Shown here in pieces: positions 5,954-25,000 of a stretch of 64,000 bases of DNA. A model generated the notes under the pieces. It ran no database searches, was not told the origin of the DNA, and saw only the letters and a program-made list of their open reading frames with translations. This stretch comes from Gloeophyllum trabeum ATCC 11539 (taxonomy: Eukaryota; Basidiomycota; Agaricomycetes; Gloeophyllales; Gloeophyllaceae). The stretch lies in contig NW_006920415.1 in assembly GCF_000344685.1 (NCBI RefSeq), positions 867,555 to 931,554 on the forward strand, read 5' to 3'. Made by a program: the position numbers and the translations under genes. How positions within the stretch are numbered: position 1 is the stretch's first letter; each line of letters opens with the position of its first letter.

Positions 5954-5961
5954 AAAAGCCT
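5954..5961. repeat. Left copy of putative 8-bp target-site duplication
   Basis: AAAAGCCT directly abuts the left terminal repeat. The right copy at 15726-15733 is AATAGCCT, so 7 of 8 bases agree. This is what a cut-and-paste insertion leaves behind after one later substitution. Confidence 0.6.
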
Positions 5962-5990
5962 ATGACGGTCCGTTTGCACTTTTAATAAAA
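5962..5990 (+). repeat. Left terminal inverted repeat of the TET-carrying transposon
   Basis: 29 bp beginning ATGACGGTCCGTTTGC and ending in an AT-rich TTTTAATAAAA block. It is a perfect reverse complement of 15697-15725. The match would run to 30 bp if the coincident T/A at the edge of the duplication were counted. Beyond this block the two ends diverge. Confidence 0.85.
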
Positions 5991-6232
5991 TGCGCACACT
6001 TGTACTATCATGCGGTACACCACATATATAATCCTTCATCCCCACCATAAACTCTCAGGTCTGATTGCGTATATAGACTTGCAGCACAACAATGCATACA
6101 TATAAGTATGGTCGTTTGAGTATATAATGTTGTCAAGCCTCCCTTCTAAGGCGTACCCATGTGCCTTGCTATTTTACTACCAATTTTATTTTCACATTGA
6201 AACGAGTGATTCAAGTCTAAGTCTAATCCTCT

Positions 6233-7975
6233 CTAATCCTTCGTCCATGGACTCCGCTTTGGCTTCCCCGGCGATGCAAGTGTCTTCCCACCGGAATACC
6301 CAAACTCATCCCCAGATAACGCCTGGGCACCAATTGGTCCAGTCCCCCCACTGAAAGATCCTCCTCCGAATAACTCAAACCCAGGATACTCCAGATATGC
6401 CTCCTTGTCCGCAAAGGGATCCAATCCGTCTACACCATCAGTCAGTACTACAGCAAGCACGGTAGCATTACTACCAGCACATACCTGATGGCTCTTCATC
6501 GGTCCTGCTGCGCTTCACCTCCACAATCTCAACCTCGGAATCACTTGCTGGCATCCTGCCTCTCTTCGCAACCAGTCGCTCTGACTTGCGCTCTTGATGT
6601 GCAGCCGCCTTGATATGGGCAGTAAACTCCGACTCCTGAGTCCCCTCGCTTCCCGAGTCGCTGTCAGAGCTCTCCGAAGGTGTCTCTGCAAATAGTTTAC
6701 CCTTCCGAACTAGGATAGGCCGGTTGACAGCCTTACCGGGATCAGCTTCCTTGCCCTTGCCCTTGCCCTTATACGCAGGGCGAGGTCTAGGGCGCTCAGG
6801 AGATCCTTCATTGTTGGAAGAGCTGTCGCTATTCTCTTCTTCAGTCGTTTCTTCACCAATGTCTTCCGTAGGAGAGATTGCCTCTGGGAGGCGATGGCGA
6901 GCCATGTCCGTAGCAGCATCCCAGTCCTGTAGAACGGAGAGCGGGATTAGATGGCTGGTAGCTGAGTTTGTAATCAGCTTTCATATCATATGAATCATCG
7001 CCGGACATACTAAAGTATAACGTCATCTTCTCTGGCGGTAAGCCAGTTCCTCTTTGCCGTGCGAGATCACTCCCATTTATTGCAGGGCGCCTGATTGAGA
7101 TGAACTTGCCATAGTGCCGTCCCAAGAGACCCCAGTGGTACTCTCCATCACGAGGTCTTCCATAGCGCACATCCAAGTACCGGAATGGCTGAGGAAATAG
7201 CTTCCGAAGCCAGGAATCAATAGCTTCTGCACTCCACTCTCGGTGAAATGTGGGCATTCCATCACCTTCACGATCGACTACCAGACCTGCTTCTTGGTAG
7301 CTCTTCCGACCCTTCTGGCCATTTTCTATTATTTCAGGCGTAGGGACTTCCTCACGTCGGACTTTACCAGAGCTCTGAAAGTGTATTCAGTCATCACTAC
7401 TCTCGACCAAGTAATCTGAGGATATGACGTGCTCACCTTCAGTCCATAAGGCATCAGTAGAACCATGCCAACTTTTATCCCCCTCGACGCTTGCGCTTTG
7501 GGCTTTAGGGTCACCTTGACTACCTTTTTAGCACCTCGAACCTTCTGTATACGCATCAGGATGTAGTCGTGGCCATAATATGATGGCGGCTGACCTTGAA
7601 TCGAGTGTCATTACCCTGGGGCCGATGGCCCTCCCAAGCACCATCCACAGCGACATCGTCAACCTTCCTGAACCCGGCGTTCGCCTCTCTTCGTGCCTCA
7701 GCCTCGTCTGCCTTCTCCGGTAGGCGCAGCCTTGGTAACTTCACTGAATACTGGTCGACAATGCTGGCGACAACTCCCAAGTCTGAGCCACCGGTGGAGG
7801 GCAGTGGGATGGGTTCATCGGCAGTATGCAGGAAGTCCTTGTGCTTGCATCCGCACTTGTCTTTCTTCTTGGGTACATAGCGCTGACACCGACAGGCGTT
7901 ACCGTCCTTGTCCAATCCAGCACAGTAAGGCCGGTTTGAAGGCAGGACAGGAGGACCAGCACTAGAGGAGGACAT
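6233..7975 (-). CDS. Transposon-borne hypothetical protein with an N-terminal Cys/His cluster
   Basis: I do not recognise a named family. Five exons (7595-7975, 7437-7544, 7011-7374, 6485-6961, 6233-6429) sum to 1527 nt, giving 508 residues with every junction in frame. The first exon holds a compact cysteine/histidine cluster (YCAGLDKDGNACRCQRY, then KKKDKCGCKHKDFLH) that looks like a zinc-chelating module. A basic stretch KKVRGAKKVVKVTLKPKAQA follows, then a conserved-looking globular part with REWSAEAIDSWLRKLFPQPF and DGEYHWGLLGRHYGKF. The C-terminal third is low complexity: acidic/serine-rich (EETTEEENSDSSSNNEG), a KGKGKGKE run, then a Gly-rich end. This composition suggests a nucleic-acid-binding or chromatin-associated accessory protein, but that is inference. 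An alternative start three codons upstream (7984) exists. It lies nearest the left terminus, transcribed toward it. Confidence 0.7.
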
Positions 7976-9191
7976 TGTGCGCAAAGGGACTGTGGACGCA
8001 GGGCACAGACAACGTGCAAAGGGGTAAGAGCAAGAGCGTTGAGCAACCTGCCTGCAGAGACCCTAATGCTGGCGAAATAGTGGACCCGGTCACCACTGTC
8101 AGTGCGGGCCGCCATGTTATCCGCTAGATTTCAATCGGGACTGTAGTAGTTCAGTTTGCCAAATCAAAACATATCGCCCTCTTGCTGAGCAGGTGGGACC
8201 AGTCTCATACACCAGAAGCTATATACAACATGGTCAGCATCACCCATATCACCGCCCAGAACCATGCATCGCTCAGAGTGCAAAGGGCATGAAATTTGCC
8301 CTCAGCCATCTGAAGCGGGCCCTCCTAAGTTGGAGCACTCGATCGAGGGGCTGCCAGCGGCTCCGACGGCACCCGCCTTATGCCATTCAATATATCATCA
8401 GCTTGGCCTCGGACGGCTGATGCGTATGGTGGGAACACAGCCATTTGGTTGAATACGGCGGCGAAGGACTGGGTGGTAACAGAATGGGCCGTCAGCGCAT
8501 CAATACGGGCATGAAGAAGAGGAGGCTGGGAGAATAAGGGAGACGGACGGGCGGGGTCACTCTACACCAGTTCAGTAGTACTTGCATCAACCAATGTTGA
8601 AATACGTATCCTTTTACCGGGGACTCCAGTCATCATCCCTTTTTGTGAAGGCCACAATGGCCTTTAAGCAGGGCAAATGATTTCGTGAAAACGTTCCCAA
8701 GTTGCATGAAACATGCCCGCGTTCCAGTTGAACGCGTCATGTTGTAAGTCGGTGGCAGTAGACATATTCCCAGATCGCACGAAGTCAGCCTTGATGCATT
8801 GATGCGCCACATCCTTTTCCTCCGCCTCGTCGAGTCTGTCTCCCGCATCCCTCCCCAGAGTCCCGCACCTGCTGCCCCACTACTCCCATGAACCTCATCT
8901 CGACCACTCGCGCGATTGGCGAGCACTTTATCGACGGCAAGAGCAGCTACCTCTGCCGCGCTCGAGGCTCTGGACAAACACCTGCATATGCGCTCCATTT
9001 TTCCAGGCATTCGGCATGCAAGACTAAGGTCTGTTGCCTCCCATTCCATTCTCTCACTCTTGCTTGCTAATTGCTTGCCTTATGCACCGGCACAGTCCTG
9101 TGCACGTACGGCATTGTTGGCAGGCTCGTCTGGACGAACAGGACCCCACGAGGAATGGGCAGGTGAGTGCAATGAAGAATTGCATAGGTTT

Positions 9192-9222
9192 CAGGGGAGG
9201 TAACACCTTGTTACCTCCCCTG
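9192..9222. repeat. Perfect 14-bp hairpin with a 3-nt loop
   Basis: CAGGGGAGGTAACA at 9192-9205 is an exact reverse complement of 9209-9222, separated only by CCT. The stem is G/C-rich with no mismatch. It has no T-run after it, so a terminator is not implied in a fungal context. It may be the core of a miniature element or a structured RNA. Confidence 0.8.
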
Positions 9223-9570
9223 CTAATTGACCCACTTTAGCCCAAATCCTCGCCCCAGCACACACACATGCATGCTGAAGACAACGAACGCGTGCCCACT
9301 CCCAGCCGTGCGGAGGTGCGCAAACTCCCGCCTATCCAGCAGCCCTCGCCACTGGGTCCAGATGTACGCGAGATGTCCGACTCTCTGCAAGCAGAGCGAA
9401 TCGAGGCGTGATTGATGACATCCCGGATGATGGCGCGGCGACAAGAGCACAGAGGTGAGCTTGTCATGGCGACTACATCTACATCCTGCAGATTGATGGT
9501 TCAGTACATCTAGTGAAAAGCACGGGTTACGGGAACCCGTGTGGGTAAGGGTAAGGGTACCGGCGGGTAT

Positions 9571-9858
9571 GGGTATGCGGGTCGCGTTTGGCCGTATCCG
9601 TAACCCGGCGGGTCTCGAGAACGCATCGTTCGACGCGCTCTCGAAACCGAAACCGCGAGTACCCGCGTACCCGTACCCGACCTGTCGACGCGGGTTACGA
9701 CGCGGGCGCGATATGGGTATGCGGGTCGCATTTGGCCGTATCCGTAACCCGGCGGGTCTTGAGAACGCATCGTTCGACGCGCTCTCGAAACCGAAACCGC
9801 GAGTACCCGCGTACCCGTACCCGACCTGTCGACGCGGGTTTCGACGCGGGCGCGATAC
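9571..9858. repeat. 144-bp direct tandem duplication, two copies
   Basis: Unit 1 (9571-9714) and unit 2 (9715-9858) differ at only four positions by my alignment, about 97% identity. Each unit is rich in GGGTAY/RTACCC hexamers and CpG. An inner TCGAGA...TCTCGA pair could fold back. The preceding 40 bp contain GGGTAAGGGTAAGGGTAC-like telomere-resembling runs. Long open frames cross it in several phases, but their Arg/Tyr/Pro-rich products reflect the repeat rather than a gene. Confidence 0.88.
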
Positions 9859-10352
9859 AGGTACGCGCCGGGAGATTGGAAAGTCACTGGCAGCTGCAGC
9901 GAAGTCATTGTTTCTTGTTTAACGGTTGAAGACTTGGGCTACGAGATATGACCGTGTGCATATGCATCATTCAAAAATACTAGTAATGGGAGACTGGAGG
10001 TTATTATAATTATACACTGGCAGAGTACTTGTATGATCCAACCTAGGCTACATGTCAAAATTGCATCATGATCAATGGATTGGATAAGACTATGCATGGG
10101 TGTGATGGAAATGAATAGCAAGAACATCCTGTCGTCTGATACGGCTGCATTTCGGTGGCGTGGAACACATCGGTGGCGCTGGATGCGTCCGACGTGCCAG
10201 ACATTGTTGACGCGCTCGCGCGTTTTCGCGCCGTTTACTGTCACCCGCGGCTCGCTGTACCGAGTTTCCACGCACGGGCCTGCTTTACCAGGTACATACG
10301 GTCGGTCTCACTGCGTTCTGGTCATAGCGGGGCCCCTCTGCATTCACAGAGA

Positions 10353-12436
10353 ATGAGCGGTGAGTGGCATATCGTCTGGCTGTCATCCAAAGCACGACGG
10401 CCCTGCCTCTCTCTGGTCTTGTCGCTGGCACGCACGTCGACCTGGGTGATATTGCAGACCTTTGTGTGTCGGCAGGTTGGCGCTGTAGTGGCTGGTGCAG
10501 GGGCAGGGGCAGCAGAGGCTGGCATTCTTAACAAGCCTTGGAGCCTGTATACCCATAGTGCTTGCTAATATGATCCTTTGTAGCCATCACGTATGCCTGT
10601 CGAGCTTTTCGGGAGGTAGGCTGCTTTAACTTCAATCCACCGCCGTTACTGACTCACTTTTGGCCACTAGTTGCGCGCACTCTGGAGTGTCTCAGAGTCC
10701 ACGCAAACGTACGACACTCGGCGTACACGCTCAGGCCGTGTGTTTTCACCCTGGACCCTGGATAATGTTATCAAGCCCAGGGACGTCTTTGATGTCAACA
10801 GCGCGCTCAATGCCTGTGAAGACATAGCCTACCAGCGAGATGCGGCGGAAGGGAGTGCTGGCTTTGATGAGGATGACCAGGAGTTGAGCCCTGAGCCGTA
10901 TTGGCTATATGTGGGTATGTTGTACAGTCTTATTATTCTGTGCTTGTTGGCCCCTAACATGACTGGCATCAATCAGCCAGCAAACCCACCGCTGCCTCCC
11001 TCATTGGAAAGACAACCCCTCCTGTCCCGACTCTGCCCTCTATTCCAGCTCCTGCCTCTGATGCCAGGACCACATTGGCCCCCTCCTCTTCACCATCCTT
11101 TGACTCTGCTACGGTCCCACCACTGTCACTTCTCTCCTCTGCTGAGAAGCAAGCCTTCCGCCGCCGCAAGATGAAGACTGCGAATCGGAGGAGGCGCGTT
11201 GAGGAGGACTTGGCCAAGATTGAGGCCAGAGGCCGCCATACTCTCAAGCAGAAGTCTATTGCCCTGAAGCGTTCTGGGGAGGCCCAGGTGCACCCGATTT
11301 CCTCCGATATCCACCAGCTCCATCAGGGAAAGAGTGGCTACCAGGGAGTTCGGAAGGCCATTGGCTCTGCGGAGAAGCATGAATACGTGCTTGATGATCC
11401 AGAGATCAAAGCCATGAAGTATGTTCAATGGGACGGCATGTGAGTATTAACAGTGACTCACCTTTATGAAATATTAATCGGCTCTACAGCACTCCGAAGG
11501 CGATATGTGACCCTGACGCTGATGTCCCTATCCTTGTCATGCTGGCAGGGGCCCCACGTGATAAGGACTGGGCCAATGTGCAACAAGGTGCCTTTGAGGC
11601 TATGGAGCATGCTCAGGGCAGCTTCCGCTGCAGCAAGAAGAAGCATCGGCGAGGCGACTATGTGGTGGCGGCCACAGGCATATCCTATGGCGGTGGACAG
11701 AAAGTAAGTCCATCTCTGGCCTTTGACGTGGAAGGTAACTGATTATTGAGCTAGGCTCCAGGGAACTTGGCTATACAAGGGGTGATTAACCTGATGGTAA
11801 TCAGGCTGCTCCTTGATAATCCATACATAAAGCGAATCGTTGGTTTTGCTAACCGTGAGTAACTCAGAGTTTCTTTTAAGGGTGGAACTGACTTTGCGTC
11901 CAGAGGCCTTTGATCTCTTTGCACCTCGCCTCTATGCCTACTATGCCAAGACGATGGACGATCTCTGCAACTGGAACCCTAAGCTAGAGAGGCATTATCC
12001 ACGGTCGGTTTTTGCCTGCTGCGCGTGGAATTTGGCCAAGTCAGTCTGGACTTTTATCCATACTGACCACCTGAACCTCGCTTTTGGGTGGTGTGCTGTC
12101 ACAGCACTGGGCAAGTTTGATCCTAGGAAGGGTGGCCACCTCATTATATGGGATCTCAAGCTTGTGATTGAATTTCCCCCAGGGTCGACTATTTTTTTAT
12201 GTTCTGCAATTCTGCGCCATTCTAACATCCCTGTTCGGCCTGGGGAGAGCAGGTTCTCATTTACGCAATGGACGGCTGGTGGGTTATTTAGATGGACTGA
12301 CTTTGGGTTTCGGTCAGCTGGGTCATTTGAGAAGGAGGTAGGAAAGCAAGCTGCTGAAGAAGCAAATACTGCGCGTTGGCGAGAAGGTGTATCTTTGCTC
12401 CCCCGTCTATCAGATTTATGTTGTTGGGCAATATAA
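10353..12436 (+). CDS. TET/JBP-family 2-oxoglutarate/Fe(II) dioxygenase carried by the transposon
   Basis: The family oxidises 5-methylcytosine or thymine in DNA, using 2-oxoglutarate and Fe(II). The proposed exons are 10353-10359, 10584-10615, 10671-10914, 10977-11439, 11490-11703, 11755-11854 and 11904-12436; they sum to 1593 nt, giving 530 residues. The last exon carries the double-stranded beta-helix core: HTDHLNLAFGWCAVTALG with the iron-binding HxD, then FDPRKGGHLIIWDLKLVIEF, FPPGSTIFLCSAILRHSNIP with the distal His, and GESRFSFTQWTAGGLFRW with the 2OG-binding Arg. The N-terminal half is basic and probably binds DNA (TRSGRVFSPW; SSAEKQAFRRRKMKTANRRR). The catalytic exons are sure. The first two exons are the least certain part and the true start could differ. 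It ends 19 nt from the transposase stop, tail to tail, inside the same inverted repeats. The catalytic residues are all present, so activity is plausible but unproven. Confidence 0.86.
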
Positions 12437-12455
12437 TAGATCTTTTTGTGTTATG

Positions 12456-14451
12456 CTACTCTGAATCACTACTATCACTGGTTTGAATGTCCAAGCGTGA
12501 TTCAAACTCAGCTAGGAGAGTCAATGCCTTCGTCCATGTTACCGCCCGAGGCCACCATGTCTGAAATCCTAATCCAATGCTTACATGTTTCCTGCCACTC
12601 TTGATCGACTCAACTTCAGGGTAGCCAGCCTCAGGCCACTCGGAAACATGGACATTCAAACCCAATGGGATGAAATCCGCTGCCAAGAGATCTTGGAGAG
12701 CAGATAAGAAATCACCAGTTATATCATCGGGAAAAGGACTGCTGGACTCTGGGACAGCAATAGGATCATGTCGTACATGTCGCTCTTGGTCGGCAGCAAT
12801 CATGTCATCAAGCTGTTCATCTTCTTCTTCAACGTCTGAATGACCAGCGCCAGTTTGCCCAGGAGGGCGAAGGTCGCCTGCGGAGTCAACCCCATAGTAT
12901 CGGTTTAGGATGTCAGGATGAATATCCTGAAAGTCGTCGCCATAGACCCCATGTTCCATTTGACCTACAAAGCGCATGTCCTTTGGGCACAAAGCAGTTA
13001 GAGAGCTAGAGCAAGATGCGAAAGAACAAATGACATACTACCGGCGTTTGGTCATGGCCCTCCCCAGAGATTGGGTGATGGTTCCACTCCTCCTTGAAGT
13101 CTTCACAATCTTGTCGTAGCTCAGGCAGGAAAAGATGATGAAGAAGCCATAGATGTGCAGGGTTCTTTGGGTCCAGCTGATGGAGCCGTTCAAGTCGAGA
13201 GAAGAAGGCCCGCCATCGCCGCGCAAACTGAGCTCCGACCTCAACCCATAGTCGCTCAATTCTGGTGTTCCGAGTGGAGCTGCCAGAGAGGTGAACAGGG
13301 CAGATGCAGAGGAATACAAATAACATATACCTTCCCCACATGAAAGAAGCACGGTTGGGACCGCGGTGCTTGATAACCCACACTGCTACCTCGATGTTTT
13401 CACCTCCGCGATCTCCCCGAACTCTGGATGGTAGTCCGTAGATGCCAACTGCATCAAGGAATAGGTTGAGAACTGTAGATACACGGTTATTGGTGTTTAC
13501 TTGTATGCCTACAACCTAAACATAAAGATCAGTTGTGGAAGGGAGACAAGCTGCACCGAATAACGCACCGTCCTGCAAAACCCATCTACCATACCATGGA
13601 CAACAAAGCCCCACCGGATCAGCTTATGGTAGCCATCAATGTGCCATAGATAATTGGGTCGTGGAACGCTGTACTCCTGCCGGTCAATTGCCTGATGGTT
13701 TCGGAGCACTTGACCAAGTCCATCAATGCGCCGGAGAGACATGCGAACCCGACGCTTCTGGACACGGAGGCCGTGGCGCTTCAGGAACCCAATCACATAT
13801 CGTAGACCGGATGTTGGACGGTGCTTCTTGTAGAGCTGCACAAGCAAGTCAATGTCGGCATCGGAGATCTCAGAAAATCGGTGATAGACGCCATGCATCT
13901 TAAGCTGCTTGCTGACTGCATTACGGTGCATTCCGAGAAGTTCAGCCAGCTTTGTGATCGTAATTTTCCGTCGGGTTGACATAGCTTCGATAAGCCAATT
14001 CGGATCAATGACTTTACGAGGGCGACCACGACGGCCAGTGCGTTCCACGGTGACTGGAACAATACGGTGGATCTCGGATTGCTCGCTGGAGATATCATTA
14101 GATACTGGCGAGGATCGGACACACAACATGGACGTACACCCCTTGTGCCGCAAATGCAGCATCCTCTAATTCCACAGTCACCTTTGCTAGCGCATGAGCA
14201 CAGTCTGCAGTCCATTGATCATTGCCCACATCCCTCGCCAATGCTTCCAGGATAGGTAGCATTCTCTTATAGATTTGTTCTGAGTGGATCCGGAGACGTA
14301 GCGGGTCACCATCTTCTTGTCGTAGGAGTTGAGTCGCTCGTGCATATGCCTCAGAAAGAATACCATGGGCACGCTGGACATTGGCAGACCAAATCTCAGA
14401 CTCAGGGTGTAATGGGAGGTCAGGGAATGTCAGAGGGCGTGGATTGTCCAT
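12456..14451 (-). CDS. IS3/retroviral-integrase-like DDE transposase
   Basis: Five exons (14138-14451, 13557-14085, 13331-13515, 13042-13279, 12456-12980) total 1791 nt, giving 596 residues in one frame. After a leader comes a basic, helix-turn-helix-like segment ([35 protein letters not shown]). The rve-type catalytic core follows: first Asp in [20 protein letters not shown], second Asp in [17 protein letters not shown], and Glu in [16 protein letters not shown], a complete DDE triad. The C-terminal part contains [17 protein letters not shown] and a W-P-R-A-x3-W motif. This lineage, common in animals and fungi as 'integrase catalytic domain' proteins, probably corresponds to what repeat databases call IS3EU; that name is from memory. 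An in-frame upstream ATG at 14538 would overlap the BTB gene, so 14451 is preferred. It presumably acts on the element's inverted repeats. Confidence 0.85.
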
Positions 14452-14530
14452 GTTGCAGTATAGGCAAGAGTGAGGATGACTAATCAGGGTAGACCACACG
14501 TCCTCAATCCTCAGCCAGCCACAACATCCA
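14452..14530. promoter_or_regulatory. 79-bp divergent promoter of transposase and BTB genes
   Basis: The two start codons face away from each other with only 79 bp between them, so transcription of transposase and BTB protein is probably coupled. No clear TATA or known operator was seen. If the transposase instead started at 14538 the genes would overlap. Confidence 0.4.
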
Positions 14531-15562
14531 ATGGACAATAGGCATCATCCTCTGTTCTATTACCCAGACGGGTCTTTGATTATACAGGTTAGTGATACCA
14601 AAGGGTACAAAAATCACTAAAGGTCAATTGAGCTGCAGGTGGGCAAGAACCGTACTCTATACAACATACACCTGGGACTGCTAGCCGACCGCTCTGAGAC
14701 ATTCCGGGCAATGACAGGGCTTCCACCACCAAGGGAGGGGCAAGAAGGAAAATCGGATGACCATCCCATGGTACTTCCTGAGGGTGTCAGTGAACCAGAG
14801 ATGGATAGCTTGCTCGATTACATGTTCAAAGCGTGAGTGGCCTGCACATCAAGATTAACAAGGGCTTACCAAGAATACCTCAGGCGGCATGATGATGGAG
14901 TGAAGCAGGAGGATCTGATAGCTATCCTCAAGCTGTCGACAATGTGGGAGATACAAGATGGTCGCGAATACGCAATCAGGAGGCTACCTGAATTGATCAG
15001 AGGGAACGCACCTCTTCAGTTCTACCTTGCCCGGACTTATGACATTGTGGACTGGGTGGAGCCAGCCTTCAGGGAGCTGTTGAATACACCAATCCAAACA
15101 ATCACAAAAGAAATGGCTCACGAGATCGGTCCTGAGGCATTCTATGTCCTGACTCACACAAGTGCGCAAATATCGGAGCACCGTCTTCTCCTTGCCTTCT
15201 TCCCATCAGATCCTGTTATCAATCCCGTCTGCCCTACTCCAGCCCTGTGCGCTAGCTCATGGACCAAGCAATGGTGGCACGGACTTGCAAAGCATCTCCT
15301 GCATCCAGACAGCACCTTGACCGGAGGACAAGTACTGGGGTTGTTGGAGGCAGCTCGGATTCCAGGGATGTGCATAGGCTGTCAAAAGGTAAACATCGAC
15401 TGGGTACGAGACCAGGGAGTGATGGTACAGGATGAAGCAATGAGGGAGAAAGCGCTCAAGGAGGTGTTACTCTGGTTCATCCCTGAGAAAGTGGGGCCAA
15501 GCGAGCACGACGTGGGGAAGGAAGGAGCGGCGAGTGGAGAGGCTCAGGAGGAACAGGCATAG
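14531..15562 (+). CDS. BTB/POZ domain protein carried by the transposon
   Basis: Three exons (14531-14587, 14639-14832, 14884-15562) sum to 930 nt, giving 309 residues. The N-terminus HHPLFYYPDGSLIIQ, then KNRTLYNIHLGLLADRSETF and PEGVSEPEMDSLLDYMF, follows the fungal BTB/POZ pattern: a D-G-x-hydrophobic strand, H/N-x2-LL-x2-RS and a short linker to the next helix. The C-terminal 200 residues (LIAILKLSTMWEIQDGREYA and ELIRGNAPLQFYLARTYDI) are the all-helical extension usual in basidiomycete BTB proteins. BTB domains dimerise and often recruit cullin-3 or repressors; which applies is unknown. The gene starts 79 bp from the transposase start and runs the opposite way, so they share a promoter. 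It ends 134 bp before the right inverted repeat. Frame and splice sites are intact. Confidence 0.82.
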
Positions 15563-15696
15563 GACACAGCTTGAGAATGTGTATATACATAGATAATTCT
15601 TTGTGCTGGCAAGTGTGTATGCGTGATGCTAATGTGTACGTGCGATGCAATGCATGCGAAGCGGATTATGTGATCAATTGCCATATATGTACTCAT

Positions 15697-15725
15697 TTTT
15701 ATTAAAAGTGCAAACGGACCGTCAT
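15697..15725 (-). repeat. Right terminal inverted repeat of the transposon
   Basis: Perfect reverse complement of 5962-5990, ending ...GGACCGTCAT. The following eight bases (15726-15733) are the right copy of the target duplication. Confidence 0.85.
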
Positions 15726-15733
15726 AATAGCCT
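15726..15733. repeat. Right copy of putative 8-bp target-site duplication
   Basis: AATAGCCT, one mismatch from AAAAGCCT at 5954-5961, directly adjoining the right inverted repeat. Confidence 0.6.
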
Positions 15734-24135: not shown

Positions 24136-24172
24136 GCGCGCGTACGGTTGCCGAGCAGCACCAGGTCTATTT
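24136..24172 (-). repeat. Repeat fragment, copy A (inverted relative to 24964-25000)
   Basis: 37 bp exactly reverse-complementary to 24964-25000. On the minus strand it reads AAATAGACCTGGTGCTGCTC and onward. Similarity continues more weakly for about 40 bp on the side that would encode a peptide ending KIDLVLLGNRTRA. Confidence 0.75.
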
Positions 24173-24963
24173 TCCAAAGTGCATTCGTCAGGGTGTCTGT
24201 CACCTTTACATCCCGCTGCAGGGTCCATGAGTGGCTGTGCGAGGTCTGGTCAGTCCCCTGACTGCATCGCCGGACTCCTTCTCCAGCACAGTTTCTGAGC
24301 ATTTCTCTACTGTGTATGGCCTATGTATGACTTGCTAAAGTATAAGAAACAGCTACAGAATACAGAAAGTGTGCACAACTGCTCTAGAGAGCGCTTGAGG
24401 CGTAGAGCAAGTATCATGGGGGTCCCGGTGATACTCCGGGAAGTCCAGGAACATCCGTAGCCGGGAACTGAAGAGCTTCTCGATTCTCTCAAGCGAGATC
24501 TATGGTGACACTTGATCTGGATCTGTACTTGTCGTAACTTGTCAGTGAGTCCCAATCCTTTAGCAATAGCATATTATACCATACTACTCTGGTGCACTAC
24601 TGTATTATTGTACTTTAATTTTGCTAGAATTTGCAACTTCTACAGGTCCGACTTTCGTGAACTCCCGAAGGCGCCGGACTCGGGGTGCGGGTCAATGGAC
24701 TTCAGCTCGCCCAGCAAGTGCAACCGGCACGCAGAAACTTGGATCTCGGATAGTAAGAGTCCTTCAACAATACAGCAGCAAACTTAATTACTGGCTTCAG
24801 TCTTCTATCACTGCTCTTGACCCGGAGCACAGCTGGAGGGCGAATTCAAGTAGGCATGAGGAGCTGCGAAAGGAGGGTCTCCGGGTCCCACACCGCCGAG
24901 ATCAGTATTGTATTTCCGGGGTCCGGATACGTAAGATCGTGCACTTGAGCAATGGCATTCGCG

Positions 24964-25000
24964 AAATAGACCTGGTGCTGCTCGGCAACCGTACGCGCGC
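24964..25000 (+). repeat. Repeat fragment, copy B
   Basis: Plus-strand partner of 24136-24172. In the same phase it would encode EIDLVLLGNRTRA. The shared peptide in two otherwise diverged copies suggests pieces of a formerly coding repetitive element rather than a simple hairpin. Confidence 0.75.

Follow-up and report, generated by a model that had tools for sequence, protein, structure and literature searches.

The window analysed here, 64,000 nucleotides of the Gloeophyllum trabeum ATCC 11539 genome (C6:867555-931554 in the genome's own contig labels, C1, C4, C6 and so on), contains a 9,766-bp transposable element that is bounded by perfect 30-bp terminal inverted repeats (TIRs) and carries a TET/JBP dioxygenase gene beside its transposase gene (Table 1). 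Hand splicing yields four open genes within the element, encoding from left to right a CXC protein (minus strand), the TET/JBP enzyme (plus strand), a DD34E transposase (minus strand) and a BTB/POZ-domain protein (plus strand). The TET and transposase genes are convergent, with their stop codons 19 nt apart, and the short gap between the divergent start codons of the transposase and BTB genes is a possible shared promoter. The earlier note had described one TIR-bounded transposon with four intact spliced genes and this 19-nt spacing, a description that our analysis confirms with TIRs of 30 bp. By comparison, the longest exact inverted repeats found by chance in 20 random windows measure 14–17 bp. 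The termini of the element are of the TA..TA form (TATGACGG...CCGTCATA), and two CpGs lie within the TIR ends. A 247-bp query from the left end matches only itself and the right TIR in the genome, and no near-identical copy was found. The first 19 bases of the TIR occur with ≤3 mismatches at 19 places in the genome, compared with 12 for a control pattern, so a single weak match says little; the majority of these 19 places were left unpaired, and only pairs with duplications or genes were used.

The transposase contains an integrase core (PF24764, 1.5e-63) with DD34E spacing, in which the first D is residue 255 and one Cys precedes it. It shows the features of IS3EU transposases, namely an IS3-like DDE core, a first D located 100–300 residues from the N-terminus and no HHCC motif. 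The IS3EU/GingerRoot superfamily is characterized by TA..TA termini, a 6-bp target site duplication (TSD) and an integrase-type core without the HHCC motif (PMC10045372; statements on this and the other papers cited by PMC number refer to the available parts of their texts). The window element shares the termini, the 6-bp TSD and the core type, and differs from the superfamily by its extra CXC, BTB and TET genes. The 6-bp duplication is perfect in all three end pairs of relatives that were paired by position (CCATTA on C4, GGGCGA on C7 and ATGATG on C13, of which only the ends were used) and matches at five of six positions in the window. Two further duplications, GTCATT (C32/C15) and TACATG (an element nested in C32/C15), also fit, but they are not independent because the pairs span two contigs and the flanks were used for pairing.

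TET-bearing KDZ transposons of Agaricomycetes were reportedly described by Iyer in 2014. A KDZ assignment is rejected for the window element, as no PF18758 domain occurs among its four proteins, and none of the 11 KDZ (PF18758) matches in the genome lies near a TET locus, the nearest being ~134 kb away. The proposal that the carrier differs from KDZ and has an IS3-like transposase thus stands, with a PF24764 match and no PF18758. Judged from its sequence, the element is an IS3EU DNA transposon, predicted to be autonomous by its gene content.

The window TET protein contains the HxD...H motif of Fe(II) ligands and the distal Arg of TET/JBP enzymes, as H393-x-D395 (HTD), H446 and R457 (numbered on the gene model, which is incomplete). 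It is not of the PE type (HxE), as the D of HTD is invariant in 45 aligned rows. A homologue search gave 362 matches, of which the best 120 are listed; by their recognised names, the named homologues listed are presumably from Agaricomycetes. At the family level, PF12851 has no match in the window TET at E ≤ 1, and matches nine of the 45 TET homologues at E ≤ 0.01 (best 1.2e-6). A TET-like double-stranded beta-helix fold is seen in the model of a homologue, P0001 (the TET at C12:947235), for which Foldseek and VIA rank CcTet, NgTET, CMD1 (in the Foldseek list) and TET2 above all else. In the structural alignment of this homologue, the identity to CcTET of Coprinopsis cinerea (PDB 7vpn, 7w5p, 8jkk) is about 15%, and neither phmmer nor hmmsearch matches CcTet in the PDB, whether with a single sequence or with a 45-row profile. 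When the last TET exon is compared with the C4, C32, C6 and MULE-linked C12 copies, differences amount to 0.16–0.29 at codon position 2 and 0.57–0.64 at position 3, with no stop in 169–171 codons in all four comparisons; position differences are given rather than ratios because dS is saturated or very large. At the level of the sequences, purifying selection has acted between copies on both the TET and the transposase proteins.

The pairing of TET and transposase, whose recurrence the earlier note had raised as a check, is found again in sibling elements of the same genome (C4, C32/C15 and C6:605785; Table 1). We searched the genome with a single exon, or a piece of exon size, from each gene; counting the window's own matches, this gave eight matches for the transposase, 14 at 11 loci for TET, four for CXC and seven for BTB, and all CXC (4/4) and BTB (7/7) matches sit within or at the end of these elements. 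Among the transposase-bearing elements of the window's kind, the window included, four of five carry TET and one does not; neither a consistent lack of TET from the other copies nor unrelated TIRs, which the earlier note had named as outcomes against its proposal, were observed. The C4 element repeats the window's gene order and orientations; TET is reversed in C32/C15 and missing from C7.

The four TET-bearing elements have transposases that cluster in a single clade (support 95/99); the transposases of the TET-bearing copies are 63–72% identical to that of the window, compared with 52% for the TET-less copy. Three distant transposases (C7:1795513 and two on C11; ~34% identity) form another branch (100/100). 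Around each of the two on C11, no TET match was found in 10 kb. The C7:1795513 transposase, which is IS3EU-like, has two broken TET copies, nearly identical to each other, at a distance of ~2 kb (C7:1792411-1793768), and a Copia-like open reading frame (ORF), recognized by eye, adjoins this pair. As to the state of the siblings, the BTB region of the C4 element has an in-frame TAG, and the C6:605785 transposase is split by ~7.7 kb of other DNA, with neither CXC nor a right end found in the 14.7 kb examined.

Table 1. Features of the window element and of related elements in the G. trabeum genome (positions are those of the window unless a contig label is given).
Feature	Location	Strand	Details
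Left flanking 6-mer AAAGCC, candidate TSD	5955..5960		5/6 match to right 6-mer
Left TIR, starts TATGACGGTCCG	5961..5990	+	Perfect inverted repeat; similar ends elsewhere in genome with ≤3 mismatches
CXC gene	6233..7975	-	Exons 7595-7975, 7437-7544, 7011-7374, 6485-6961, 6233-6447
Tandem repeat upstream of TET	9568..9855		Two copies (98%) of a 144-bp unit; 13 further genome matches
TET/JBP dioxygenase gene	10671..12436	+	Exons 10671-10914, 10977-11439, 11490-11703, 11755-11854, 11904-12436; model incomplete at 5' exon
IS3EU-type DD34E transposase gene	12456..14451	-	Exons 14138-14451, 13569-14085, 13331-13515, 13042-13279, 12456-12980
Gap between divergent transposase and BTB start codons	14452..14530		79 nt
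BTB/POZ-domain protein gene	14531..15562	+	Exons 14531-14587, 14639-14832, 14884-15562
Right TIR	15697..15726	-	Perfect inverted repeat
Right flanking 6-mer ATAGCC	15727..15732		5/6 match to left 6-mer
C4 element	C4:2444553-2453908		9,356 bp; flanks CCATTA; four genes in the window's order and mutual orientation
C32/C15 element	C32:561 to C15:199357		Flanks GTCATT; four genes, TET in opposite orientation; joined across two contigs
Interrupted C6 copy	C6:605785		BTB (in-frame TAG), transposase, TET
C7 element	C7:1636614-1642563		5,950 bp; TIRs, flanks GGGCGA; BTB and transposase, CXC trace (E 1.4e-5), no TET
C16 remnant	C16		CXC and one element end; rest of gene set not found in ~8 kb
C15 and C8 remnants	C15 and C8		BTB and one element end each

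In all three TET-bearing elements that have both the transposase and CXC genes (window, C4 and C32), TET is located between them. Since the C7 relative has BTB, transposase and a trace of CXC but no TET, TET looks like cargo added between the transposase and CXC. A CXC profile was run on 243 proteins, with P0198, P0200, P0146 and P0144 (Lanmaoa twice, Boletus and Coprinellus) from blastp as seeds. In the seed proteins, CXC lies C-terminal to an IS3EU-like transposase within one annotated protein, a match by construction; the same transposase–CXC fusion is present in the non-seed proteins P0224, P0141, P0168, P0218 and P0165 (E 1.2e-5 or better), which also come from other agaricomycetes. These gene models suggest that the transposase followed by CXC, with no TET between them, is the older arrangement. 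The core of the element would then consist of the divergent BTB and transposase genes and of CXC, which follows the transposase in the same direction, and the TET/JBP gene would be added cargo in the transposase–CXC gap.

The occupant of this gap appears to have changed. We built a TET tree of 35 rows, comprising 10 TETs of the genome (after removal of one identical duplicate) and 25 homologues selected from the 120 listed, in which the genome's own TETs stand apart from those 25 (96/85). The C32 IS3EU element has a TET that groups with the ones at C1:4653 and C7:1793473 (100/99), away from the other IS3EU TETs, which themselves form no well-supported single clade either. A topology in which the four IS3EU TETs are forced into one group is rejected (p-AU 0.0024, approximately unbiased test), for a group that was defined by carriers and with the identity table already known when the test was made. 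Because the TET tree conflicts with the single clade of the transposases, TET seems to have been replaced, or captured more than once, in one gap, and the steady coevolution of TET and transposon that had been considered is not supported. TET genes appear to act as a module that transposons exchange with one another, and such exchange probably crosses superfamily borders, linking IS3EU with, in this genome, MULE.

The association with MULE comes from the three genome matches to PF10551 (MULE) over the cut-off (C4:486067, C15:22265 and C12:945128; one further match, at C6:1336898, is below it). All three transposases lie tail-to-tail with a TET (C4:483878-486387, C15:20058-22585 and C12:945128-947747), and at each locus an adjoining related ORF, which has three genome matches, converges on the TET (C4:483878, C15:20058 and C12:947235). 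The SWIM zinc finger PF04434 is recognized in two of these three ORFs. Under uniform placement, the probability that 3/3 MULE transposases lie within 3 kb of a TET by chance is ~5e-9. TET and MULE are candidates for enclosure in one transposon. In addition, three of the 13 other matches of the GC-rich 144-bp repeat lie <4 kb upstream of MULE-linked TETs (C4:481732, C12:949633 and C12:951220), for which the chance is ~3e-6; the two C12 sites are not independent (2 or more: 4e-4). Quite possibly, though we propose it tentatively, a single lineage-specific TET family of this Gloeophyllum genome, detached from KDZ, passes back and forth as an exchangeable anti-silencing module among transposons of two or more unrelated superfamilies, IS3EU, in whose transposase–CXC gap it would have been replaced at least once, and MULE, which would be a twelfth TET-bearing lineage; the 144-bp repeat suggests that regulatory sequence may be shared as well.

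With respect to methylation, the genome contains four over-cutoff matches to the cytosine methyltransferase family PF00145 at three loci. The CpG observed/expected ratio is 0.75 in the window element compared with 0.98 in the rest of the window, and the corresponding TpG/CpA values are 1.21 and 1.08; the other TET-bearing copies have CpG ratios of 0.72 (C4), 0.81 (C32) and 0.50 (C6, in pieces). These ratios fit the view that several of the elements once carried CpG methylation. In the mechanism that we propose, the transposase would cut and paste at the TIRs, and the TET enzyme would oxidize 5-methylcytosine (5mC) on or near the element; this oxidation would weaken silencing by CpG methylation and keep the transposase gene and the TIRs usable. 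As a guess, the BTB and CXC proteins might regulate or target the transposase. Taken as a whole, the probable explanation is that of an IS3EU transposon whose TET cargo counters its own silencing and is exchangeable between transposons.

Several observations weigh against this explanation. The flanking duplication of the window element itself contains one mismatch (AAAGCC/ATAGCC). The close TET-less C7 sibling has a CpG ratio of 0.93, opposite to what protection by TET would give, while two distant TET-less C11 transposase regions (1.3–1.4 kb each) have ratios of 0.51 and 0.60, favouring protection; the CpG comparison is mixed, with no clear signal, and neither shows nor excludes protection by TET. 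As the copies are divergent, the selection detected is that between lineages and no proof of present function. Moreover, among the matches listed, no intron-free record is near-identical to TET or the transposase (best ~50–57%), and only CXC has one.

In the first alternative, TET is a passenger, an expanded gene swept up by transposons with no role in their life cycle. The C7:1636614-1642563 element, which has TIRs, GGGCGA flanks, transposase and BTB, indicates that TET was unnecessary for having transposed; the fused annotations in other species suggest a transposase beside CXC without TET, and CpG loss is not clearly smaller in TET-bearing copies. We consider this alternative unlikely, as TET is open and constrained in 4/4 comparisons and lies between transposase and CXC in three elements, where it appears to have been placed at least twice. 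In a second alternative, TET, rather than demethylating, labels the transposon, or the sites it targets, with a modified base of its making (5-hydroxymethylcytosine, oxidized N6-methyladenine or another). It draws on the low identity to CcTet in the homologue's structural alignment, with no sequence-level match, and on Kojima 2025 (PMC12730594), where alternative reactions (CMD1, JBP) are discussed for the divergent TETs of transposons. The fold and the Fe ligands fit both readings and do not separate them, but no Pfam-recognisable modifier such as a glycosyltransferase occurs among the four element proteins, and a marking role likewise appears improbable. That the TIRs belong to an element merely spanning unrelated host genes, as the missing near-identical copy (247-bp left-end query) and the imperfect flanking duplication might suggest, is very improbable, since C4 and C32/C15 enclose the same four genes between similar TIR ends, no CXC or BTB match falls outside such elements, and a single segmental duplication for C4 and C32/C15 is countered by their differing flanking 6-mers.

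The TET-bearing IS3EU element of the window has known counterparts. Kojima 2025 (Biology 14:1741, PMC12730594) described 11 TET-bearing transposon lineages, among them TET-bearing IS3EU elements with an alpha-kinase gene in seven Pucciniales species and Tuber indicum; the Agaricomycotina carriers given there are Kyakuja, Zisupton, EnSpm, Plavaka and Helitron2. TET-bearing IS3EU elements are therefore not new as a kind, and nor is the distinct self-epigenetic transposon family envisaged earlier. The Pucciniales and Tuber elements share with ours an IS3EU-type transposase, a 6-bp TSD and an internal TET beside the transposase, as well as variable TET orientation between families and TETs that moved between transposons. 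By comparison, the host here belongs to the Agaricomycetes and the partner genes are CXC and BTB instead of the alpha-kinase; a Pfam search found no kinase domain in the four element proteins. TET lies between the transposase and CXC here, but between the transposase and the alpha-kinase in the rust elements. The TIR is exactly 30 bp here and >30 bp in the rust elements, whose ends are TAYGG..CCRTA, whereas the window has TATGA, with TATGG at one C13 end and in the C32/C15 right-end type. Compared with the PE and AG types of that paper only, the window TET is not of the PE type and has no detectable sequence similarity to CcTet, the yardstick for AG. The KDZ (Kyakuja/Zisupton) transposons of Agaricomycetes treated by Kojima share a transposon-borne TET with the window element, but their transposase is unrelated.

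In the available main text of PMC12730594, the words BTB, MULE, Mutator, SWIM and Gloeophyll are absent, and MuDR appears twice, for plants and oomycetes. IS3EU elements are reported in the agaricomycetes Ganoderma (PMC8955403) and Phlebopus (PMC12411881), in whose available texts the word TET does not occur, and the available text of the Marasmius oreades genome paper (PMC8290104) mentions KDZ and Plavaka, not IS3EU. The literature searched yielded no description of an IS3EU element from an agaricomycete in which TET occurs together with CXC and BTB, of TET turnover within one IS3EU clade, or of TET tail-to-tail with MULE, which is absent from Kojima's 11 carriers as available; title-level searches found no other work on these TET–transposon pairings. 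Among mushroom-forming fungi, our results extend the range of TET carriers past the list of Kojima 2025; of greatest interest are the replacement of TET within a single slot and the TET–MULE neighbours. Transposons with their own DNA-demodifying enzyme provide natural tests of 5mC oxidation as an anti-silencing weapon, and this one genome offers related IS3EU elements with TET, one without, a replaced TET and cytosine methyltransferase genes, making a direct methylome comparison possible.

The CXC protein has a Cys/His cluster at its N-terminus and a conserved core, and matches no Pfam family at E ≤ 1. P0241, a 491-aa intron-free ORF on a 1,705-bp contig (tag lgn), is 96% identical to it and looks like a spliced CXC transcript. 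Compared with our model, P0241 is shorter by 17 aa (51 nt) within modelled exon four and by 6 aa at the final junction, and the model therefore probably misses one intron and one acceptor. At the TIR ends of the C4 relative (C4:2444553 / C4:2453908), the second CpG (TCCG in the window) is gone (TCCA, TTCA), which may reflect deamination at a putative transposase-binding site. Elsewhere in the window, positions 24136-25000 hold an 865-bp element with 37-bp perfect TIRs that resembles a miniature inverted-repeat transposable element, with long copies on C5 and C8 (95%) and partial ones elsewhere.

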